Shown: piece by piece, positions 7,975-32,056 of the stretch | Position numbering within the stretch: the stretch's first letter is position 1 | Layout of the letters: each line of letters begins with the position of its first letter | From: Adhaeribacter arboris | GTDB taxonomy: Bacteria; Bacteroidota; Bacteroidia; Cytophagales; Hymenobacteraceae | NCBI RefSeq assembly: GCF_003023845.1 | Contig: NZ_PYFT01000001.1 | Coordinates: 5,332,001 to 5,396,000, forward strand | Length of the DNA: 64,000 nucleotides | Direction of reading: 5' to 3' | Translations under genes and position numbers: made by a program | The notes under the pieces: model-generated | Database searches by the model: none | Told to the model about the DNA's origin: nothing | Seen by the model: the letters and a program-made list of their open reading frames with translations, nothing else

Positions 7975-10752
7975 CTACGCCGCTAACTCCTCGTTTAATT
8001 CATTTATAATTTCATCGGTCTGATCACCGAACAGTTGCCACATTTTACCCAAACCCCCGTGAGCATTAAAGGGGCTTAAATCAAAATCGTCGCGCTCCAG
8101 CCGGAAACTGTTGGCTACGTAGTCTTTTATCATCCGGAGCCATTGCATCTGGGTTTCGGTAAACTTGAGGGTACCGGCCTGCTTTTTAAATACCCATTCC
8201 TGAAAGTTACGGTCCACGGTTTTGTCGTAGGCCGTCAGGGTTTCGTCGAGTCCGCTTACTTTCCGGATGAGCGCCACCAGAGCCATGAGTTCGTTTTTGG
8301 GCTGGCCATTTACTTTTTCCAGTTGTTCGTAAGCCCGCCAGATGTTTAAAGGCGCTAAGTTAGGTCTTGCAGCTTTAATTGTTTCCACCAAATCCTTCAT
8401 CATTTTATAAGTGAGTTCCCTCCGCCCGTAGGGTTGTCCGTAAAATAACTGCAAAGCCGTAATTTCGGTTTGGTGGGTTTCTATCCAGGTCCGGAAATCC
8501 TGCACCAGGTTTTCGGCTTCGGCTTGGTTGTCTTTTACCCAGCCAATATTTACCAGCTCATCGGGGTTAATGTGGTCAATTACCTGGTCGTACTTTTTGC
8601 GGACATCAATCACATAATTCCTCAGGTCGTAATCGTTAAACACGGCCGTAGCCTGCTCAATAATTTGTTCGTGTTGTTCCTTTACCTGGGCTTCAATTAC
8701 ATCGGGGGCAGCACCGGGGTTTTGCGCCAGTGCCTGTAATCGTTCGTTTTCCAGCGTGTCCGGGTCGTAGGCGTGCAGCAGTTGCTTTACCACCTGGTTT
8801 AGGGTAAGTCCGCCGGCTTTTTCGGCAAAGGCGAGTTTTTCTTTTTCGTTTATCTGTTTATCGAGCCGGATGAGGCGGTTGGCCAGCGTGGTGAGCATGG
8901 CTTCGTCTTTGTTGCCCATGGCAATGCCTTCCAGTACTTCTTTCAGCGAGAGGCCCGGCTTTTTCTCCAACGGGCGGCTGTCGGTTTTCCGGCTTTTCTC
9001 TACCCCAATGGCATCTATAATCACAAAATGGTCTTTGGTGTATTTAGCGGCCGGGGTGCCGGTAGCTTTGAGTTCTTCTAAACTACAGGTGCGGGTGCCG
9101 CGGCCTTTCATTTGCTCGTAATAGCTGCGGCTTTTTACATCGCGCATAAACAGCAGCACTTCCAGCGGCCGGATGTCGGTACCGGTGGCAATCATATCTA
9201 CGGTAACGGCCACGCGCGGGTAATAACTGTTGCGGAACTGCTGCAACACGGTTTTGGGGTCTTCGCTGCGGTAGGTTATCTTTTTGCAGAACTTGTTTTC
9301 TTCGGCAAATTCTTCCCGCACAATATTTATAATGTCGTCGGCGTGGCTGTCGCTTTTGGCAAAAATGAGCATTTTAGGTACTTCAAACTTGCCATCCGGT
9401 CCAATCCGGTCGGGGAACATTGCCGGTAAATTATCTTTATCGGCTTTAGCAATGAGCCGGATTTGGTTCGGGTTTACTACTTTCTCGTCGAGTTGCTGGG
9501 CCCGGTATTCCACTTCTTCGTCCAGGGTATTCCAGAACTGTTTGCGGGTGAGTTTTTCGCGGGTGCCTACGTATTCGCCTAAATCTATCTTAGCCCCTTG
9601 CTGGGTAATTTTAGTGACAATCTCGAAAACATTGTAAGGCACCAGTACACCGTCTTCCACCGCTTTCTGGTAGCCGTAATCGCAAACTAAGTTCTGGTTA
9701 AAATAACCAAAGGTCCGATTATCGGGCGTAGCGGTTAAACCAATCTGGAAGGCATCGAAATAATCGAGCACCTGTTTCCAGAGGTTGTAAATGCTGCGGT
9801 GGCATTCATCAATCACCACGAAGTCGAAAAACTCCATGGGTATTTTTTCATTATACACCACCGGTAAAGGTTCCTTGGGCTGCCACTTACCTTCGTTCGG
9901 GTTTTCTTCTTCGTCGCGTTCGTCTAAAGGGGTGCCTTTTAAAATAGAATACAAGCGCTGGATGGTGCTGATGTACACTTCGCTGTCGGTGGGCACAAAG
10001 GCACTGCTCAGGCGGGTAACGCCGTAGAGTTCCGGGAAAAGCCGGTTGTCGTCCTGTGGTTCGTAGCGCTTAAATTCCTGCTCGGCCTGTTCGCCCAAGT
10101 TTTTGGTATCTACCAGGAACAAAATGCGCTTGGCTTTGGCAAATTTGAGCAGGCGGTAAATAAAAGTAATAGCCGTAAACGTTTTACCCGAACCCGTCGC
10201 CATTTGAATGAGGGCTTTGGGCCGGTTTTCCCGGAAAGATTTCTCCAGGTTGGTGATGGCTTGAATCTGGCAATCGCGTAAGCCATCGGTAGGTAGTCCC
10301 GGAATATCATGAAACCGACCTCGTAAGGTTTTACTTTCCTTTATCCATTTCTGAAAAGTCTCGGGCCGATGGAAAGTAAACACCGGCCGGGAGCGAGGTT
10401 TGGGATCGCGGTAATCGGTAAAGCGGGTAACTTCACCGGTACTCTCATACACGAACGGCAAAGGACCATTGTTAATGTATTTGAGCTTAGCCGTAGCATA
10501 ATCAACGGACTGGTCTTCGTGTACCGTCAGCTTGACGCCTTCTTCTTCGCGTTTGGCTTCAATAATACCTACTGGCTTCTTATCCACGAACAACACGTAA
10601 TCCGCCGGTCCCACATCGGTTTGGTATTCCCGAATCGCAATACCAATGCCGGCGCTTAAATTTACTTTCTTTTTATCCTGTATGATCCAGCCACTAGCAG
10701 TAAGTAATTTATCAATCTCGTCACGGGCTTTCTGTTCGGGATTTTGGTTCAT
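7975..10752 (-). CDS. hsdR: Type I restriction endonuclease motor subunit HsdR
   Basis: This 925-aa protein is the ATP-driven translocase and nuclease of the complex. The N-terminal nuclease domain shows a PD-(D/E)xK-type arrangement, with D51 in GPADYVLFV and E65-A-K67 in VGIIEAKRE. The SF2 motor has Walker A ATGSGKT at about 185-191, the DECH box at about 315-318 and TATPDNR shortly after. ATGTDIRPLEVLLFM and RGTRTC belong to the second RecA domain. The C-terminal 300 residues resemble the EcoEI-type R subunit tail. It is the first gene of the operon, so its expression would set that of the rest; an A/T-rich upstream region follows on the minus strand. Confidence 0.95.
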   Translation of the reverse strand: MNQNPEQKARDEIDKLLTASGWIIQDKKKVNLSAGIGIAIREYQTDVGPADYVLFVDKKPVGIIEAKREEEGVKLTVHEDQSVDYATAKLKYINNGPLPFVYESTGEVTRFTDYRDPKPRSRPVFTFHRPETFQKWIKESKTLRGRFHDIPGLPTDGLRDCQIQAITNLEKSFRENRPKALIQMATGSGKTFTAITFIYRLLKFAKAKRILFLVDTKNLGEQAEQEFKRYEPQDDNRLFPELYGVTRLSSAFVPTDSEVYISTIQRLYSILKGTPLDERDEEENPNEGKWQPKEPLPVVYNEKIPMEFFDFVVIDECHRSIYNLWKQVLDYFDAFQIGLTATPDNRTFGYFNQNLVCDYGYQKAVEDGVLVPYNVFEIVTKITQQGAKIDLGEYVGTREKLTRKQFWNTLDEEVEYRAQQLDEKVVNPNQIRLIAKADKDNLPAMFPDRIGPDGKFEVPKMLIFAKSDSHADDIINIVREEFAEENKFCKKITYRSEDPKTVLQQFRNSYYPRVAVTVDMIATGTDIRPLEVLLFMRDVKSRSYYEQMKGRGTRTCSLEELKATGTPAAKYTKDHFVIIDAIGVEKSRKTDSRPLEKKPGLSLKEVLEGIAMGNKDEAMLTTLANRLIRLDKQINEKEKLAFAEKAGGLTLNQVVKQLLHAYDPDTLENERLQALAQNPGAAPDVIEAQVKEQHEQIIEQATAVFNDYDLRNYVIDVRKKYDQVIDHINPDELVNIGWVKDNQAEAENLVQDFRTWIETHQTEITALQLFYGQPYGRRELTYKMMKDLVETIKAARPNLAPLNIWRAYEQLEKVNGQPKNELMALVALIRKVSGLDETLTAYDKTVDRNFQEWVFKKQAGTLKFTETQMQWLRMIKDYVANSFRLERDDFDLSPFNAHGGLGKMWQLFGDQTDEIINELNEELAA

Positions 10753-11016
10753 GCGGTATTCGGGAATCTATTTCCAATGATACAAAATATTTTCTGTTTT
10801 GAATATTATTATAGAGCCTCGACAAAGTATTTTTTTATAGCCCACCTAAAGTCAGGCACCTCAAATTATTTAGGAGGTTTAGGATGGATATCTGAAAACT
10901 TAAAAAAGCAGAATAGTTACAGAAGGCGAGTAATCAGGAGATGATTACAAAGAAAAGTAGTTTGGTTTGGGTTATAACAAGTATTAAGGTAAGTTTTCCT
11001 TGATTAAGACTTGGCA

Positions 11017-11325
11017 TTAGCTGTATCCTTTTACAAGCAGCTCGTAGAATTTGTGGGCCAAGACATCTAATTGGTTAAAAAAAGCAGAGGTTTCCAGAGC
11101 GGTGAAATTTACCATTTGCTGATGATAAAAGGCATAATAACTATCATTGTTTTCTGGTATGCCCATCAGGACCAGAATAATGCTGCCTAGATCACTGTGG
11201 TAGGGTTCGGCTATAATTTCGAGTAGGTTTAACCCGAAATGGAGTTTATTGCTTTTCAGGTCCTCTTTAATGAGCTTTACAATTAGCTCCGGCCTAGTGA
11301 TAAGCGAGTTAGATAGTGGTGTCAT
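11017..11325 (-). CDS. Hypothetical protein, 102 aa
   Basis: The protein is all-helical by appearance and slightly acidic, with no signal peptide or transmembrane segment (LIVKLIKEDLKSNKLHFGLN and LDVLAHKFYELLVKGYS at the end). The open frame has a good ATG start and sensible codon use. No family is recognised and its neighbours give no clue. Confidence 0.5.
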   Translation of the reverse strand: MTPLSNSLITRPELIVKLIKEDLKSNKLHFGLNLLEIIAEPYHSDLGSIILVLMGIPENNDSYYAFYHQQMVNFTALETSAFFNQLDVLAHKFYELLVKGYS

Positions 11326-12090
11326 AGAGTAAAATAAAAGTTAATGGTTATAGGTTTAATGGATGGATAGGTATAAGAGCAATCCAGTTGAATTACCGGC
11401 AGGGAAAAAAGCAAGGTTAGCCTTTTCTATTGTGGAGCTTTCCGATGAAACAGGAAGAGAATAGAATAGAGGAAGGTTTGCAGGAGCTTTATTTGCAAAC
11501 TTCCTTATAAACTTATCTAAATTGAAAATGTGCTACCGTTAAGGCTATCGAAGATTCTATCATTGGTGAGCCTCATATCAGTGCTTTGGAGCGAGAAGCA
11601 TGGATTGCCTTAAAGATACAATACCAAAAGTTGATGGAACTTCGGTTATAATCTGTATTATTCTAAAAGAATAGGGAAGGGAAAAAAGCAGCAGTGATAC
11701 TCCTGGCTTAGTTCAGTTAACAAGTAAAAGGACAATTTTATAACCGAGTTTAATTAATCGGTTACTATGTCGTTCCGAATGCTTTTTTGCAATCGAATAC
11801 AAAAAGGCTGTTCTAAATAATTAATTTAATAAAGCAGGGAAAGGAAAAAAGCGTTCCTGCTTATTACTTTAAGAAATAGATTACGGTATAAGAGAAGGCT
11901 GCATGGGCGAGTATAAATCGATTTCGATTTAAAAGGAGTTGTTAGCAAATTGGTTGAAATGAAGTCAGCTGAAATTTATATCGAATCTTTTGACCAAACA
12001 GAAGAAAAGTAATAAATTCTAAAAGCAACAATTGCACTTTCTCTTTAAGATAATCCCGGAGTAACATTCAGATTGGTACCTATTCTTTTT
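11326..12090. other. Non-coding stretch with a decayed small ORF
   Basis: No intact gene is supported. A plus-strand ORF at 11445-11510 (MKQEENRIEEGLQELYLQTS) stops early. A start-less frame at about 11530-11651 continues with GEPHISALEREAWIALKIQY and a stop. Together they look like the frameshifted remains of a 60-70-aa gene. The short motif GGRAAAAAAGC recurs near 11402, 11678 and 11831. Confidence 0.35.
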
Positions 12091-12306
12091 TTAAAAATCC
12101 ATTAAGTCACGCAAAGGTATTTCCAAGGCCTCACTAATAGAAAGCAACACATCCAAGGTAACAGCAAACTGAGCATTTTCGGTTCGCATAATGGTAGCCC
12201 TATTCAGGTTGGCTATATCAGCCAGTTCTTGTTGGCTGATTCCTTTTGATTCTCTGATGTTTTTTAAATGTGTTCCAAAAGCTTTTAATTTCGCTGGATT
12301 CTTCAC
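12091..12306 (-). CDS. XRE-family helix-turn-helix transcriptional regulator
   Basis: The 71-aa protein is a minimal Cro/C1-type DNA-binding domain: FGTHLKNIRESKGISQQELA (helices 1-2), then DIANLNRATIMRTENA (recognition helix) and LDVLLSISEALEIPLRDLMDF. It has no second domain, like many antitoxin-type or prophage regulators. It is divergent from the acidic 88-aa gene starting at 12416, and the 109-bp space between them probably holds both promoters. A regulatory link is likely but not shown. Confidence 0.88.
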   Translation of the reverse strand: MKNPAKLKAFGTHLKNIRESKGISQQELADIANLNRATIMRTENAQFAVTLDVLLSISEALEIPLRDLMDF

Positions 12307-22518: not shown

Positions 22519-23574
22519 ATGAAAAAAAGGAATATCGTGGTAATTGGTGCCTCCACTGGCGGTTTTGAGGCCATCAGGCAATTAATAGCCAGATTGCCGG
22601 CTGATTTGGATGCCGCTATTTTCATAGTTTGGCACATGTCACCGGATGTAACGGGCATCTTACCTCAATTAATTAACCGGCAGAAAACTATTCTAGCCAC
22701 TAACGCGGTGGATAAGGAGCCTATTGTTATGAATCGCGTTTATGTAGCCCCTCCCGACCGGCACCTGCTGTTGGAGCAGGGCGTGGTGCGGGTAACCCGA
22801 GGGCCCAAAGAAAACCGGTTTCGTCCAGCAGTGGATCCCTTATTCCGTTCCGCGGCTTATATGTATGGCCCCCGAGTAGTTGGAATAGTGCTATCCGGCG
22901 GCTTAGATGACGGAACGGCGGGGTTATGGGCCATTAAACACCGAGGCGGCTTGGCTATTGTACAGCAACCTGAGGAGGCTGAAGTGCCTTCTATGCCCGA
23001 AAACGCCTTAGCGGCAGTGCAAGTAGATTACTGTTTATCAATTGCTGAAATAGCAGCTCTGTTGGTTAAGTTAACGGCAGAACCCATTCAGGAAGTAAAA
23101 CAAGAAGATATGAAAGAGCAAGAAAAGACCGAAATAGAAGTGCGCATTGCGCTACAGGATCAAGCCCTGGAGCAAGGCGTTATGAAATTAGGCCATCTAT
23201 CGCCCTATGCTTGTCCGGAATGCCATGGTGTCTTGTCAGCAATTCAGGATGGCGACATTATCCGCTACCGGTGCCACACGGGTCACGCATATTCGGCGAA
23301 TAGCCTGCTAACCTCTATTACTGAAAACATCGAAGATAGCTTGTGGGGTGCCATCCGGGGAGTGGAGGAAAGCATGATATTGCTCAATAACTTGGGTGAC
23401 CATTATGCCGAAAACAATCAACCCAAATTGGCGGCTATGTATTTTAAAAAGGCGCAAGAAGCAGAATCCAGGGCAAATATAGTAAGACAAGCAGTTCTAA
23501 ACCATGAGCAACTAACCAACGATAGGATCAGCCGGCAAGCAACCGAAGAAGATTTAACATCTTCAGAAAGGTAA
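22519..23574 (+). CDS. cheB: CheB-type methylesterase with C-terminal Cys/His motif
   Basis: The 351-aa protein carries a complete CheB esterase domain without a receiver domain. The catalytic triad is recognisable: S12 in GASTGG, H39 in VWHMSP and D131 in LSGGLDDGTAG. CheB removes methyl groups from (or deamidates) chemoreceptors. After a charged linker (about 190-220) comes a CPECH...RCHTGH motif (C232, C235, C252, H256), a likely zinc-binding knuckle, followed by a helical C-terminus. It is 34 bases upstream of the CheB-CheR fusion on the same strand, so they probably form an operon. No receptors, cheA or cheW lie nearby, so the substrate may not be a classical receptor. Confidence 0.9.
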   Translation: MKKRNIVVIGASTGGFEAIRQLIARLPADLDAAIFIVWHMSPDVTGILPQLINRQKTILATNAVDKEPIVMNRVYVAPPDRHLLLEQGVVRVTRGPKENRFRPAVDPLFRSAAYMYGPRVVGIVLSGGLDDGTAGLWAIKHRGGLAIVQQPEEAEVPSMPENALAAVQVDYCLSIAEIAALLVKLTAEPIQEVKQEDMKEQEKTEIEVRIALQDQALEQGVMKLGHLSPYACPECHGVLSAIQDGDIIRYRCHTGHAYSANSLLTSITENIEDSLWGAIRGVEESMILLNNLGDHYAENNQPKLAAMYFKKAQEAESRANIVRQAVLNHEQLTNDRISRQATEEDLTSSER

Positions 23575-23608
23575 AATCCATCTTAGGAATTAGGGTAAGT
23601 AAAGTTTA

Positions 23609-26600
23609 ATGGAAACAAATCAAATTACCAAGTTTCTCACCGAAAAACCAGAAGGTTTTCTGATAACCGGTATTGGCGCCTCGGCCGGGGGTGTCCAGGC
23701 GCTGAAAGAATTCTTTCAGCACGTACCAGAAGATTCTGGGGTTGCTTATGTGGTCATTCTGCATCTGTCACCCGACCACGACAGTCAGCTGGCCCAGGTA
23801 CTCCAGGCGGTTACCACTATTCCGGTGAGGCAGGTAACGGAAAAAGTTAAAATTGAGCCCGACCATATCTTCGTGGTTCCCCCTAACCAGCACCTGATAA
23901 TGGAAGATGGCTTTGTAGTGCCTTCCGTTAACCTGCACTTGGAAGATAGACGGGCGCCGGTAGATATCTTCTTCCGGACATTAGCCGATTCATATGGTCC
24001 CCGGGCCATTTGCGTGGTTTTATCCGGTACCGGTGCCAATGGATCTATGGGATTAAAACGGATAAAAGAAATGGGCGGAGTGGCGTACGTGCAAAATCCG
24101 CGCGAGGCGGAGTTTAATGAAATGCCGCGCAATGCCATCGCCACAGATTTGGTAGATGAGGTGCTACCAGTGGCGGATATTCCCCGCAAAATAATTATAT
24201 ACCAAAACAGCGTCGGCACGATTGAAATACCCGTTGAAGCCGAAAAGCGCCCGGAACAGCAACAACAAGCGCTGCGAGAAATATTTACGCAGTTGCGCCT
24301 GCGTACCGGTCACGATTTCTCCAACTATAAACATCCTACTCTGCTGCGCCGGATTGAGCGGCGTATTAATATTCGCAACCTGCCCGACCTACCCAGCTAC
24401 GCGGCCTTTGTCCAGCAAAATCTGGAGGAAGTTAATGCCCTGCTCAAAGATTTGTTAATCTCGGTCACTAATTTCTTCCGGGATAAAAAGCCCTTTGAGG
24501 CCATGGAACGGGAGATGTTACCTGTTATTTTTAAGAATAAAACTGCCCAAGACGAGGTGAGAATATGGGTGGCGGGTTGTGCCACTGGGGAAGAAGCGTA
24601 CTCCCTCGCCATGCTGGTGGCCGAAAGAACCCTGAGTGCCTTAAACACCCCTAAAGTACAAATATTTGCCACTGACATTGACGATGCCGCCCTTACGGTA
24701 GCCCGGGAAGGGTTGTACACGCTCAACGATGCCGCCGATGTGTCGCCGGAAAGATTGCGGAATTTTTTTCAAAAAGAAGGCGACAATTACCGCATTAAAC
24801 GCGAGATAAGAGAAATGATTTTGTTTGCGAGCCATAACTTTTTAAAAGACCCGCCTTTTTCGCGCCTCGATCTGGTAACTTGTCGGAATGTATTGATTTA
24901 CTTGAATGCTACGGCTCAGGAACGGGTAATGGAAACGTTTCACTTTGCTTTAAAATCCGGTGGTTATTTGTTTCTTGGCTCTTCTGAGTCGGTGGATGGC
25001 GCAAGTGACCTGTACGCCCCTGTTAGCCGGGATAACCATATCTTCCAAGCGCGGGAAGTGGCTCTGCGCCATTACCCGGTGCCGGAGAGTGTTTCGTCGA
25101 CCTTTCAATTCCAGAAAAATGAACCCCTGCTGCAAAAGCAAGAAGTCAGTATTGGACAGTCGCTCCATCGAATTTCGTTCGGGGAGCTGCACCAGAAAAT
25201 GCTGGAACAATACGCGCCACCTTCCCTGGTGGTAAACGCGGATTATGATATTTTGCATATGTCCGAGAAGGTAGGCCGCTTTCTGGAATTTTCCGGTGGG
25301 GAACCAACAAAGAATTTGCTAAAACTGATCAAGCCGGAGCTCCGGTTGGAGCTCCGGTCGGCGCTTCACCAAGCCGCACAACGCCAGGCACCTATGGAGG
25401 TCCGGAATATACCATATGGTAAAAGTGAAGAACGCCAATTGCTAAGCATTCAGATAAGACCGGTAACGAAAGAAGATGATCCCGCCAATGCGTTTATTCT
25501 GGTAATATTTGATCAAAATCAAAAGGAGCCGAGTGCGGAAACAATCGTGTTACGTTCGGACGAACCAGTGGCCAGACATCTGGAAGAAGAACTTATCCAG
25601 GTAAAAGCCCAATTAAGACACTCGACGGAGCAGTTCGAATACCAGGCTGAAGAGTTAAAGGCCTCGAATGAGGAATTACAGGCCATTAATGAAGAATTGC
25701 GTTCGGCTGCCGAAGAACTAGAAACTAGTAAGGAAGAACTGCAATCCATTAATGAAGAGGTACGGACGGTAAACCAGGAACTGAAGGTAAAAATTGAAGA
25801 AATGGGCGTCACCAGCAACAATCTTCAAAATTTGATTAATTCGGCCGAGGTAGCTACTATTTTCCTGGACCGGGCTTTCTGCACCCAGTTATATACTCCG
25901 GAGGCGCGGCAAATTTTCAACTTGATTCCTACTGACTACGGTCGCCCCATTTCGGACATCACCCATCGTCTAGAATACCGCGATTTGTTGCACGATGTCG
26001 AAACCGTGCTGGAAAAGCTAACGATTATCGAACGGGAAGTAACTACCACCGACGACCAAGCTTTTATGATGCGGATATTACCTTACCGCACCACCGAAGA
26101 CCGGATAAACGGGGTGGTGATTACCTTTTTTGACATTACGAAGCGAAAACAATCCGAAAAGGCGTTGCAGCAATCTGAAGACCGGCTGCGCTTGTTGATA
26201 GAGAGTGCTAAGGATTATGCCATCTTTACCATTGATACAGAAAGACGGGTAATAAGCTGGAGCAGTGGTGCCCAAATGATTCTTGGTTATACGGAAGCCG
26301 AAATTATGGGCAAATCCGGCGACATAGTCTTTGTGCCGGAAGACCGCGATCAGATGGCTCCGGAAAAAGAATCGGAGACAGCACACCAAGAAGGCCGCGC
26401 CGAAAATGAGCGTTGGCACCTGCGCAAGGATGGCTCCCGCTTTTGGGGTTCGGGAATTACGCAGCCCTTACGTGATGAACAAGGAAAAACTATTGGCTTT
26501 GTGAAAATCATGCGGGATTTAACGGAACAGCGGCAAATGGAAGAGGCTAAGTTCTTTTTGGCTTCTATTGTGGAGACTTCCAATGATTCGGTGATTACCA

Positions 26601-29236
26601 TTGACTTTCAAAGAAATATCACCAGTTGGAATAAAGCCGCCGAAAATCTATATGGATTTAGAGCAGAGGAAGCAATTGGTAAGAATTTGACTCTGCTCAC
26701 GCTTCTCGAAGACTTTGCAGAAATTATAAATTGGATTGACGCCATAGAACATAGCCGGGAAGTGGCCGTTTTTGATACGGTCCGGCATAACAAAGAAGGC
26801 GAGCCTGTTTACCTGGAGATCGTGATGTCGCCGGTGTTAAATACTTTCGGGCAGGTTATTGGCATTTCCATCATTGCCCACGACGTAAGTGAACGCAAGC
26901 GACGAGAAGCGAACTTAGCCTTCCTAGCAAAAATCAGCATAGATTTCGCCCCCTTATTAACCATACAGCAAGTGATGGAGTTGGTAGGGGAACAGCTTGC
27001 CCGTTACTTGCTGCTTTCACGCTGCCACTTTGCCCTAGTTGATGAAGACGACGATCGGGTAGAGGTTATTTACGAATACCGGCGAGATGAAAAAATGCCA
27101 AGTTTGATGGGAACGCACCACCTTTCTGATAACCTTACCGAAGAAGGTAGGCGGTATTTAAGGGTCGGTAAAGTGGCAGTGATAAACGCTACCATGAACA
27201 GTCGGCTGGTGAAAATCTCGGCGCAGATGCTCCAGCAGATTGGCTTTGGTTCGCGGGTAGATGTGCCGCACTTGGCGGAGGGGCAGTGGAAATTTTTACT
27301 CACCGTAGGACGAGCAGAAGTAGGCGAGTGGCGCAGCGATGAAGTGGAACTGCTACAAGAGCTGGCCGCTAAAATATACATTCGCCTAGAAAGAGCCCGC
27401 GTTGAAGAAGCGCTTCATCAGTCGGAAGAACGTTTGCAAAAGGCACTTTCTATTGAAACGGTAGGTATAATCTACTTTGATTTAGAAGGAGGTATTCAGG
27501 ATGCCAATGTTGCTTTTGAACACATGAGTGGCTTTTCGAAAGAAGATTTTGTTCAGGGCAAAGTTCGTTGGGAAGAGATTACGCCGCCGGAATATATGGA
27601 AATTACCTCAATCGCCCGGCAGGAGTATGAAGAGAAAGGTCAGAATACGCCATACGAAAAGCAGTATATCCGTCCGGATGGCACCCGTTGGTGGGGACGG
27701 TTTGCCGGCAGACGCCTCAGCGAAAACGAGTACGTAGAGTTTGTAGTAGATATTACCGAGCGGAAACAAGCTGAAGAAGAACTCCGACAATTGAATGAGT
27801 CGCTGGAACGACAAGTAAGCGAACGTACGCAGGCTTTACGTGAAAGCCGGGACCTGCTACAATCCGTTTTTGATACTACCTTGCTTAGTCTTTCTATTAT
27901 CAAAGCGGTCCGGGATGAAAATGAGACCATTATTGATTTCAGGATTGAGTTGGTAAATAAAGAACTGGAGCAGGAAACCGGCCGCACGGACCTGGTGGGT
28001 AAATTGTATTCAGTCGAATACCCAGGCATTAAACAAGCCGGTCTATTTGATCTTATGCTCCGAGTGATGGATACCGGAGAACCGGGCCAGGTAGAATATT
28101 ATTACCCGCACGAAAACTTTAACAAGTGGTATTCGGCCATGTTTGTGAAATTAGATGATGGGTTAGTGGCCAGCAACCTGGATATAACGGAGCGGAAGCT
28201 TGCCGAAGCGGAACTTACCCGCAATTTCACTATTTTGAAACAAGCCGAGGAAGTCGCGGGGATGGGTAGTTGGGAGTTTGATTATACCACTAATAGCTTC
28301 TACTGGTCGGAAGGAATGTACCAATTATTTGGATTATCAATGGGAAGTGAAAAGAGCCCGGAAACTTACCTGGATTATGTGCTAGAAGAAGATCGGATCA
28401 TTGCAGAGAACCTGGCACAAACGATCCGACATAATCCCCAGCCGCTAGAAGAAACCCTGCGCATCCGGGTAAAGGAAAAGGTAATTACTTTACAAATAAA
28501 AGGCATTGTGTTGCGCGATGATTTGGAGCGGCCTTACAAGCTGTTGTGCGTAGACCTGGATGTTTCCGAATTGAAACGTTTGGAGCAGGAAAACCTGCAT
28601 ATTCGTTTAGAACAGCAAAAAGCCTTGCTACTTGCTGTTCTAGAAGCACAGCAAGAAGAAAGAAAAAGAATAGCCGAATCTTTACACAATGGGGTAGGTC
28701 AGATCTTATATGCTACTAAATTGAACCTGGACCAATTAGTGGCCCACCTACCTAAAGAAGTGATGACACCCACGGCGAATCTTTTATCGGAGGCTATTCA
28801 GGAAACCCGGCGCGTGTCGCACGAGCTGGTGCCGCTCGTTCTTGAAGATTTTGGTTTGACCCAGGCCATGGAGGATTTATGTCAAAAGTATGAACAAAGT
28901 GCCATTCAAGTAAATTGCGAGGTAGATCTGGAAGGGCGTTTAGAGTCTTATTTAGAACTAGCGATTTACCGCATGGCCCAAGAATTACTGACCAATGTGG
29001 TCAAACATGCGCAAGCCACGGAAGCCGATTTGTTGCTGACCCAGGAAGAAGGAGAAATTACCTTAAAGTTGCGGGATAATGGCCAAGGTATGAACTTGAA
29101 AAATGGTAAATCAAAAGGCCTTGGGTTGCGCGCCATTGCTGACCGGGTTAAACTACTCAATGGTACCTTTACAATCGCCACGCCGTCAACAGGCAAAGGC
29201 ACGCTGATGATTATACAGCTACCCGTTCCCATTTAA
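23609..29236 (+). CDS. CheB-CheR-PAS-GAF-histidine kinase fusion protein
   Basis: This 1875-aa cytosolic signalling protein combines many modules. In order: a CheB esterase (about 18-205, GASAGG with S25); CheR N-terminal and SAM-methyltransferase domains (about 215-480, WVAGCATGEEAYSLAM and CRNVLIYL); a region of unclear fold; and a long coiled coil (about 660-730, rich in EELxxxNEEL). Then come several PAS domains (about 735-1097), a GAF domain (about 1100-1264), three more PAS domains (about 1267-1657), and a HisKA_3-type kinase (about 1677-1740, with H1693 in ESLHNGVGQ) with HATPase_c (NGQGMNLKNG and GLGLRAIADR). It probably links methylation-like enzymology to phosphorylation of an unlinked response regulator. 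Confidence 0.92.
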   Translation: METNQITKFLTEKPEGFLITGIGASAGGVQALKEFFQHVPEDSGVAYVVILHLSPDHDSQLAQVLQAVTTIPVRQVTEKVKIEPDHIFVVPPNQHLIMEDGFVVPSVNLHLEDRRAPVDIFFRTLADSYGPRAICVVLSGTGANGSMGLKRIKEMGGVAYVQNPREAEFNEMPRNAIATDLVDEVLPVADIPRKIIIYQNSVGTIEIPVEAEKRPEQQQQALREIFTQLRLRTGHDFSNYKHPTLLRRIERRINIRNLPDLPSYAAFVQQNLEEVNALLKDLLISVTNFFRDKKPFEAMEREMLPVIFKNKTAQDEVRIWVAGCATGEEAYSLAMLVAERTLSALNTPKVQIFATDIDDAALTVAREGLYTLNDAADVSPERLRNFFQKEGDNYRIKREIREMILFASHNFLKDPPFSRLDLVTCRNVLIYLNATAQERVMETFHFALKSGGYLFLGSSESVDGASDLYAPVSRDNHIFQAREVALRHYPVPESVSSTFQFQKNEPLLQKQEVSIGQSLHRISFGELHQKMLEQYAPPSLVVNADYDILHMSEKVGRFLEFSGGEPTKNLLKLIKPELRLELRSALHQAAQRQAPMEVRNIPYGKSEERQLLSIQIRPVTKEDDPANAFILVIFDQNQKEPSAETIVLRSDEPVARHLEEELIQVKAQLRHSTEQFEYQAEELKASNEELQAINEELRSAAEELETSKEELQSINEEVRTVNQELKVKIEEMGVTSNNLQNLINSAEVATIFLDRAFCTQLYTPEARQIFNLIPTDYGRPISDITHRLEYRDLLHDVETVLEKLTIIEREVTTTDDQAFMMRILPYRTTEDRINGVVITFFDITKRKQSEKALQQSEDRLRLLIESAKDYAIFTIDTERRVISWSSGAQMILGYTEAEIMGKSGDIVFVPEDRDQMAPEKESETAHQEGRAENERWHLRKDGSRFWGSGITQPLRDEQGKTIGFVKIMRDLTEQRQMEEAKFFLASIVETSNDSVITIDFQRNITSWNKAAENLYGFRAEEAIGKNLTLLTLLEDFAEIINWIDAIEHSREVAVFDTVRHNKEGEPVYLEIVMSPVLNTFGQVIGISIIAHDVSERKRREANLAFLAKISIDFAPLLTIQQVMELVGEQLARYLLLSRCHFALVDEDDDRVEVIYEYRRDEKMPSLMGTHHLSDNLTEEGRRYLRVGKVAVINATMNSRLVKISAQMLQQIGFGSRVDVPHLAEGQWKFLLTVGRAEVGEWRSDEVELLQELAAKIYIRLERARVEEALHQSEERLQKALSIETVGIIYFDLEGGIQDANVAFEHMSGFSKEDFVQGKVRWEEITPPEYMEITSIARQEYEEKGQNTPYEKQYIRPDGTRWWGRFAGRRLSENEYVEFVVDITERKQAEEELRQLNESLERQVSERTQALRESRDLLQSVFDTTLLSLSIIKAVRDENETIIDFRIELVNKELEQETGRTDLVGKLYSVEYPGIKQAGLFDLMLRVMDTGEPGQVEYYYPHENFNKWYSAMFVKLDDGLVASNLDITERKLAEAELTRNFTILKQAEEVAGMGSWEFDYTTNSFYWSEGMYQLFGLSMGSEKSPETYLDYVLEEDRIIAENLAQTIRHNPQPLEETLRIRVKEKVITLQIKGIVLRDDLERPYKLLCVDLDVSELKRLEQENLHIRLEQQKALLLAVLEAQQEERKRIAESLHNGVGQILYATKLNLDQLVAHLPKEVMTPTANLLSEAIQETRRVSHELVPLVLEDFGLTQAMEDLCQKYEQSAIQVNCEVDLEGRLESYLELAIYRMAQELLTNVVKHAQATEADLLLTQEEGEITLKLRDNGQGMNLKNGKSKGLGLRAIADRVKLLNGTFTIATPSTGKGTLMIIQLPVPI

Positions 29237-30906: not shown

Positions 30907-32056
30907 TGTAAAATAAACTGTGTCACTTATTATTTTTATTAGAGTTGTGGGCATGTGGTAAACCTGTTTGGAGGTTTTCCATATGTCCCCAACTATCCAT
31001 TTTTGAGATAGACTGTGAGTCGTTCTTCAAACCTAATGTAAAGCTGCGATAAAGTCAAGCGCCAGTTGTGCAGCGGCATAGTCCACTTCTCGGATACTTT
31101 TTGCACCACCAGGTAAATCAGCTTCAGTAAAGCATTGTCGGAGGTGAAAGCCCCTTTAGTTTTGGTCACTTTACGTACCTGTCGGTGGAAGCCCTCCACG
31201 ATATTGGTCGAATAAATGACCTTACGAATAGCAGCATCATACTTAAAGAAGGTTGACAAATGCTCCCAGTTATTATACCAGCCTTGTAGCGGCACTGGGT
31301 ATTTCTTGCCCCACTTCTCGTCCAGCTTCAGCAGGTTTTCATAGCCTTCTTCCTGGTTGAAGGCTTGGTAAACCGGTTTGAGGTCAGCTATAAAGGCTTT
31401 CTTATCCTTCTCGGCAATATAGCGTAGGCTGCTGCGAATCTGGTGGACCACACAAGTCTGGATCTCGGTTTGAGGAAAGATGGCAGCAATAGCTTCGGGA
31501 AATCCTTTCAGTCCATCAATGCAGACAATGAGCATATCTTCTACGCCGCGACTTTTCAGGTCTGTTAACACCGAGAGCCAGAATTTAGCGCCTTCGCTCT
31601 CTGACAAGTACATGCCGATTAAGTCTTTGGTGCCACTAAGACTTACACCTAGAATATTGTACACTGCCCGCGTGACCACACTGCTCCCTTCCCGGACTTT
31701 GACTATCGGATCAAAGCTGCCCGAGCGGTCCCGGGTAGTTTCCAGTTCAAACTCTCCTGAAAGGCTCTTGACCTTTTTACTAGTCTTGCCATTCTTGCGG
31801 TTGGTCAATCCCGCTGCCTTTTCCTCCTGCAGGTGAGCCTCTAATTCGCCGGCCAGCGCCGACTCTAGAAAGTGTTTGAGTAATGGCGCAAAGATGCCTT
31901 TCTCGCCATTCAGCGGTTTGCCTGCATACATCCCTCTTATCGCTTCCTGCTTGAAGCTTTCAAAGTCAAATTCCTGGTCTTTTTCCATAAATAAACTGTG
32001 TCCTTTAAAGTTAATTCTTTATTCCCTTTTGTTCTTTTGACACAGTTTATTTTACA
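30907..32056 (-). mobile_element. IS256-family insertion sequence
   Basis: A 1150-bp element is bounded by 19-bp perfect terminal inverted repeats, TGTAAAATAAACTGTGTCA at 30907-30925 and its complement at 32038-32056. It contains one transposase gene on the minus strand. I see no matching 8-9-bp target duplication in the flanks, so the insertion is old or the flanks rearranged. Confidence 0.88.
30993..31988 (-). CDS. IS256-family transposase with internal deletion
   Basis: The frame is open for 331 aa, shorter than the family's usual about 400. The N-terminal zinc-finger-like and helical part (HFLESALAGELEAHLQEEKA) is intact, and so are the C-terminal catalytic blocks: CIDGLKGFPEAI with the second Asp, CVVHQIRSSL, and IYSTNIVEGFHRQVRKVTK with the Glu. 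In relatives the text from about FEPQ-I-V to the YLDAI segment with the first catalytic Asp lies between FDP and KVREG. Here these are fused (SFDPIVKVREG), so about 80-90 residues and the first Asp are missing, in frame. The protein is therefore probably inactive. Confidence 0.85.
   Translation of the reverse strand: MEKDQEFDFESFKQEAIRGMYAGKPLNGEKGIFAPLLKHFLESALAGELEAHLQEEKAAGLTNRKNGKTSKKVKSLSGEFELETTRDRSGSFDPIVKVREGSSVVTRAVYNILGVSLSGTKDLIGMYLSESEGAKFWLSVLTDLKSRGVEDMLIVCIDGLKGFPEAIAAIFPQTEIQTCVVHQIRSSLRYIAEKDKKAFIADLKPVYQAFNQEEGYENLLKLDEKWGKKYPVPLQGWYNNWEHLSTFFKYDAAIRKVIYSTNIVEGFHRQVRKVTKTKGAFTSDNALLKLIYLVVQKVSEKWTMPLHNWRLTLSQLYIRFEERLTVYLKNG

Follow-up and report, generated by a model that had tools for sequence, protein, structure and literature searches.

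What genes make up this locus? The window analyzed here (the whole 64,000-nucleotide stretch from Adhaeribacter arboris) carries two same-strand open reading frames separated by 34 nt: a stand-alone CheB, hereafter the solo CheB, and a 1875-aa protein that joins CheB, CheR, PAS, and GAF-like domains to a histidine kinase (Table 1). The original prediction had described such a pair, and the observation is real: both frames were confirmed, their domains were recovered with Pfam, and the pair is conserved and more specific than first described. Beyond what had been noted, the triad Asp of the fusion's own CheB domain (CheB*) is changed to Asn, a helix with paired Glu residues follows CheR, and the kinase is a separate gene in six relatives. 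A transposase-like ORF (IS256-like by eye; window 30993-31988, reverse strand) lies 1.7 kb after the fusion, in the direction in which some relatives carry a response regulator.

Table 1. Features of the solo CheB and the fusion kinase (window positions; res, residues of the respective protein)
Feature	Position	Strand	Basis or details
Solo CheB	22519..23574	+	351 aa, PF01339 catalytic domain res 7-181, triad Ser12-His39-Asp131 intact
Predicted zinc ribbon of solo CheB (res 226-259)	23194..23295	+	Cys232, Cys235, Cys252, His253/His256
CheB*-CheR-PAS-coil-PAS_10-PAS/GAF-histidine kinase fusion	23609..29236	+	1875 aa, Pfam
CheB* domain of fusion (res 21-195)	23669..24193	+	Ser25 and His52 kept, Asp replaced by Asn144
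Codon AAT of Asn144, CheB triad Asp position (LSGTGANGSMGL)	24038..24040	+	Alignment with 1chd
CheR_N and CheR methyltransferase (res 221-473)	24269..25027	+	PF01739/PF03705, alignment with 1af7 and 5ftw
PAS-like domain between CheR and coil (about res 539-636)	25223..25516	+	Model secondary structure
One long predicted helix (res 654-745)	25568..25843	+	Model
Six heptads (res 681-722) with Glu-Glu at f,g, proposed methyl-acceptor helix	25649..25774	+	Heptad conservation
PAS_10 domain (res 739-844)	25823..26140	+	Pfam
Variable sensor part, further PAS and GAF-like (about res 871-1678)	26219..28642	+	Pfam
HisKA_3-type phosphoacceptor (res 1684-1743, under cut-off) and HATPase_c (res 1783-1874)	28658..29230	+	Pfam

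The solo CheB has PF01339 (CheB_methylest) as its sole domain, starting at residue 7, and no receiver domain was found in the protein. Its Ser-His-Asp triad, located by alignment with 1chd, recurs in all 57 solo CheB rows with a readable triad—a count that includes the duplicates L039/L069 and L040/L103, three frames that are interrupted ahead of the tail (L040, L103, and L100), and one tail-less CheB (L050), with four cut or broken rows in which the triad is partly visible (L025, L086, L099, and L102) standing outside it. The AF2 model (pLDDT 89.5) returned nine Foldseek matches with E up to 0.001, all of them CheB, over 185-198 columns; two NCBIfam matches to the protein were both far below cut-offs. 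Past the catalytic domain, the model places strands (226-231, 238-244, 247-251, and 257-259) on both sides of each of two Cys/His knuckles, and a helical hairpin (260-327) follows. The knuckles, CxxC and CHxGH, occur in 49/49 aligned solo CheBs, broken and partial frames having been left out of this alignment, in which C232, P233, C235, G237, R251, C252, H253, G255, and H256 are invariant. Judging from motif and model, the tail is a predicted, family-wide zinc ribbon, probably with a structural or docking role. It had been suggested that this tail might sense redox or metals; the 49/49 motif and the strands fit a structural zinc ribbon, and nothing here speaks for redox sensing.

In the fusion, Pfam identified the CheB domain, CheR_N (221-271), CheR (286-473), PAS_10, and several PAS domains. 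HATPase_c is over its cut-off (39.3 vs. 26.4 bits), GAF is just under (21.0 vs. 22.4 bits), and HisKA_3, at 23.1 bits vs. a cut-off of 24, passes in the homologues L068 and L077. Among the best 25 of 37 NCBIfam families, TIGR00229 (PAS) alone passes its cut-off. CheB* matches the fold of 3sft (Z 29.3) and the CheR part that of 5ftw (Z 29.5). The SAM-binding motifs of CheR are intact, its conserved Arg, Asp, Asn, and Tyr are present, and the columns R291, E329, D356, R426, N427, and Y431 are invariant across 43 aligned rows. In the homologue L068, Pfam places a PAS domain at 528-630, which corresponds to the PAS-like region that separates CheR from the coil. A model of residues 1-856 had a mean pLDDT of 82.3 and a pTM of 0.55, a value that leaves the placement of its domains uncertain. 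After PAS_10, the chain continues for 52-1070 residues in 37 members of the clade.

How does the pair relate to the chemotaxis genes of this genome? As the original prediction held, no cheA, cheW, or receptor is near: the 7.25-Mb, two-contig genome has a single MCP signal domain and just two CheW domains, one each in CheW and CheA, and all three sit near C1:1.19 Mb, some 4.2 Mb away in contig coordinates. They belong to the single chemosensory cluster (G000:C1:1182420-1190768; L002 4421-12769), whose 1645-aa poly-HAMP receptor, CheW, CheY, CheA, and CheC-like protein were named by eye and in which a genome-wide domain search found no CheB or CheR domain. The pair is not genetically linked to receptor, CheA, and CheW as in a classical pathway, this sole cluster being elsewhere; nor was there a complete chemotaxis operon that uses both proteins, since the only chemosensory operon is without cheB and cheR. 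In the matching cluster of two relatives (L122 and L123), cheB sits between cheY and cheA, with no cheR there, and the matches listed include no CheR for the genomes G030 and G115. CheB and CheR domains as such are not rare in this genome: every CheR match falls in one of four distinct CheB-CheR fusions, which are located in the window, at C1:1.43 Mb and C1:2.07 Mb, and on contig C2. On C2 the matches are doubled (10464-12149 and 191332-193016), about 180,868 bases apart and near both ends of a 209.5-kb contig. Because the duplicates share this spacing, C2 is suggested to be a circular plasmid of ~181 kb whose contig ends overlap and whose frameshifts were left uncorrected; some of its fusion frames are shifted. 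A 30-residue CheB-like match (25.5 bits) also occurs at G000:C1:777305-777394 in a 46-codon frame, around which no CheB ORF was found in L026.

We then asked how well the gene arrangement is preserved among relatives. Named genome contigs scanned with fusion residues 1-854 yielded 41 loci at 61-76% identity, mostly from Bacteroidota, and the window and its plasmid paralogue bring the set to 43. Left out before counting were L039 (L069's contig), L040 (L103's contig), L027 (a second copy of L025), and a second fusion of L081 (6360-9635), whose partial CheB match is misaligned at the triad and reads E-N-D. In 39/43 loci, a same-strand solo CheB precedes the fusion by no more than 500 nt (L103, L106, and L108 judged from frames), so what had been called a probable operon appears, from gene order, to be a conserved one. 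The exceptions are L091 (downstream), L107 (1.6 kb upstream), L092 (cut by the contig edge), and L095 (none in the locus). In six loci (L079, L080, L088, L092, L104, and L107), the fusion chain stops soon after PAS_10, and the next same-strand gene encodes a separate PAS protein with HATPase_c, with HisKA or HisKA_3 in 5/6 and GAF in three. The split order is CheB, then CheB*-CheR-PAS-coil-PAS_10, then the PAS kinase, the CheB of L092 being beyond the contig edge and that of L107 1.6 kb away. A receiver-domain gene, identified by eye, is the first or second same-strand downstream ORF in 20 of 36 listed loci (the L081 row concerns another fusion); Pfam confirmed Response_reg in all 10 of these that were checked, three of which also have a LuxR-type GerE domain. 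No response regulator adjoining the fusion was found in the window. With two regulators of relatives as queries, neither the window nor the four fusion loci of this genome gave a match at E 1e-3, and the 1.7 kb after the fusion held one 17-residue match only (E 0.001); elsewhere in the genome, the best homologue lies at C1:1757844, with 50% identity. Three Asn-type loci (L096, L099, and L107) are on contigs labelled as Actinomycetota, Acidobacteriota, and Abditibacteriota MAGs, a placement that reflects either gene transfer or binning error. Two places (L050 2109-3562 and G130:C1:304133-305290) have an adjoining CheR of stand-alone size (~280 aa) and tail-less CheB (~200 aa), and genomes with no MCP match likewise contain CheR matches of stand-alone size; these may represent a second receptor-free methylation system.

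The CheB domain of the fusion does not have the canonical triad, reading Ser25, His52, and Asn144. The corresponding residues are S165-H191-D287 in the P. atrosepticum enzyme (PMC7698151) and Ser164, His190, and Asp286 in Escherichia coli CheB (PMC3180692). Mutagenesis and conservation back the role of the triad in CheB, but other triads are known in which Asn takes the third place (PMC9825947), so a loss of CheB* activity is not certain. The Asn is present in 41/43 loci of the clade (39/41 scanned, the window, and the plasmid copy), and none of the peptide patterns used in the locus scan covers the site; the two Asp exceptions, L075 and L098, are both from Hymenobacter sp. YC55. Unlike this clade, all 40 fusions examined from other clades (38 from survey genomes, chosen among the matches listed, and two C1 paralogues of this genome) keep the Asp. 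On a quick tree of 79 rows, from which L105, L106, L103, and L108 were left out, the Asn fusions and the two YC55 rows form one clade (39/79 rows, SH-aLRT 100), and the site changes twice; this looks most simply like one origin at the base of the clade and one reversal. Could CheB* be a decaying relic? Its Ser and His are kept in all readable Asn-type loci except L102 (Ser to Ala), and dN is low (0.05-0.15) vs. dS (0.4-2.4) in six pairs, which gives that idea no support. Mean identity over 37 rows is 0.71 for CheB* vs. 0.73 for CheR, and by these sequence measures CheB* is under strong constraint. Nor does pairing with a solo CheB account, as a rule, for the loss of Asp: 12/40 other-clade fusions are paired within 500 nt (10 divergent, and one upstream and one downstream on the same strand) yet keep it.

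Does the module require a chemoreceptor? From the 41 scanned loci we took 21 isolate genomes (20 Asn-type plus YC55, MAGs left out and genome completeness unstated), and 13 of them have no MCP signal domain; CheW is found in none of the 13. The eight MCP-bearing isolates are six Hymenobacter, a Chryseosolibacter, and a Fulvivirgaceae isolate. A chemoreceptor is therefore not an obligatory substrate. Of the 13 receptor-less genomes, 11 have the solo CheB immediately before the fusion, L091 has it downstream, and L095 shows none; the module thus persists where there is no chemoreceptor at all. A survey of 148 genomes of the order gave at least 49 in which CheR matches a frame of at least 600 aa, counted here as a fusion; these counts rest on the matches listed and on frame length, so that weaker fusions could be missed. 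MCP is over the cut-off in 31 of the 49 and not in 18, none of which has CheW, although one of the 18, G039, shows an MCP match below that cut-off; 15 genomes have MCP without a fusion, among the matches listed. Fusion and MCP co-occur above chance in the order (odds ratio 9.6, genome size and descent uncontrolled), which counts against their full independence.

The long helix that follows CheR carries heptads of the type N-E-E-L-Q-[ST]-x, repeated over residues 681-722. A plain structural coil is expected to conserve positions a and d most. Across 36 non-redundant fusions (5 Asn-type), compared within their own coils, entropy is instead lowest at f (0.09 bits) and g (0.20), followed by e (0.43), a (0.72), c (0.95), b (1.71), and d (2.17); the f,g mean is 0.14 vs. 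1.45 bits for a,d, and 0/20000 shuffles were as low. Glu fills 416/426 f,g cells, with Asp or Gln in 2. The length over 684-722 deviates in 9/81 rows, always by exactly seven residues. Such conservation of Glu pairs resembles that expected of a CheR substrate, and it could also serve docking only. No match to the strict MCP methylation consensus was found in the fusion coil; a relaxed consensus has five coil matches at 7-residue spacing and two more elsewhere in the fusion, and the genome's own MCP has two strict matches. Used as a query against this genome, the coil matched at E < 1e-9 in five places, all within the four CheB-CheR fusions (one duplicated), and the next match stood at 0.001. 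Among ORFs of the fetched loci, 81 of the frames that hold the heptad pattern have a CheR match; a single one, L070 1-1356, has none, begins at the locus edge, and carries a similar NEEL heptad coil.

What might such a protein pair do? We propose, at a probability of roughly 50%, that this two-component sensor kinase has a receptor-free module for sensory adaptation built in. The CheR of the fusion would methylate Glu residues at f and g of the long helix further along its own chain, within or across a dimer, and the solo CheB, with its intact triad, would strip the methyl groups off again. The methylation level would reset the signal that passes from the helix via the PAS/GAF array to the kinase, which would signal to a response regulator. 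CheB*, with its Ser-His-Asn set, would probably be a weak or altered esterase, or a reader or docking site for the methylated helix. The original prediction had suggested that the fusion could act on itself or on an unknown receptor; self-action is now the better-supported option because of the 13/21 genomes without a receptor, the lack of CheW in all 13, and the Glu-pair coil. The conserved pairing with a solo CheB, the intact CheR motifs, the 18 surveyed genomes of the order that have a fusion and neither an MCP over the cut-off nor CheW, the receiver-domain genes downstream in relatives, the restriction of strong coil matches to the fusions, and the RsbM/RsbK precedent discussed below also count for self-adaptation. 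Against it count the want of a strict MCP consensus in the coil, the relaxed pattern elsewhere in the fusion, the position of the coil outside the kinase chain in the six split relatives, the L070 coil without a CheR match, and the window's lack of a response regulator next door; the co-occurrence of fusion and MCP counts the same way, though genome size or descent could produce it too. A tentative variant, which we hold to be improbable as a whole, sees a complete system for glutamate methylation without a chemoreceptor, in which CheR is the writer, the solo zinc-ribbon CheB the eraser, and CheB* a reader or a different hydrolase.

Alternatively, the CheB and CheR domains could be non-catalytic docking or dimerization parts of a large sensor kinase, with no carboxyl methylation at all. 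The lost triad Asp would fit, as would the absence of a known substrate; the invariant CheR motif residues (43 rows), the intact solo triads (57/57), the near-equal conservation of CheB* and CheR with Ser and His kept, and the strict Glu identity in the coil argue against it and make it unlikely. We give still less credence to action in trans on the genome's single poly-HAMP chemoreceptor. That receptor's operon has neither cheB nor cheR, cheB sits in the matching cluster of two relatives, the receptor has the two strict consensus matches, and fusion and MCP appear together above chance; however, 13/21 isolate genomes with the clade's fusion have neither receptor nor CheW, and G030 and G115, of the same family, have a receptor and no CheR match among the matches listed. 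The pair might also methylate and demethylate other sensor kinases or further proteins in trans. The split forms, which keep the methylase-coil protein apart from the neighboring kinase, speak for this, but within this genome the coil signature is strong only in the fusions themselves, and we consider it the least probable of these readings.

Methylation-based adaptation is textbook knowledge for chemoreceptors, and RsbM is a methyltransferase of the CheR type. KEGG K13924 carries the name of a CheB/CheR fusion and was found listed only as a cheR. The folds here are those of classical CheB and CheR (1chd, 6ymz, 1af7, and 5ftw), with catalytic residues for the solo CheB and CheR; unlike the classical proteins, the solo CheB has no receiver and carries a predicted zinc ribbon and helical hairpin, and no receptor, CheA, or CheW is nearby. 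As in annotated CheB/CheR fusion kinases, the order is CheB-CheR-coil-PAS_10, common to the 40 other-clade fusions; 28 of these lack a solo CheB within 500 nt, and in 10 it is divergent. No account of the function of CheB-CheR fusion kinases was found in the open-licence literature searched. The nearest likeness is RsbM/RsbK of Bacillus cereus, in which a methyltransferase is likewise co-encoded with a kinase: RsbM is reported to methylate RsbK, a sensor kinase, on its signaling helix and to repress it, and is described as an orphan methyltransferase without a cognate methylesterase (PMC4574943), and a genomic link of RsbK with CheR has been described (PMC12848376). Helix methylation is reported there and is proposed here from sequence and model; unlike the separate RsbM, described without a paired methylesterase, the CheR here belongs to the kinase chain itself, with a solo CheB encoded alongside. 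FrzF and other CheR-TPR proteins similarly fuse CheR to another domain and belong to non-classical pathways, but FrzF methylates a chemoreceptor, FrzCD (PMC3447774).

The nearly invariant Glu heptads name the exact residues to test, the receptor-less species offer a clean background, and the split operons would be useful for testing in trans. In the Asn clade, where an intact CheB adjoins the fusion, the esterase role looks to have been split naturally. If the proposed adaptation module is real, ordinary two-component sensing would gain a chemotaxis-style memory, and two-component sensors of Bacteroidota could adapt to background as chemotaxis arrays do.
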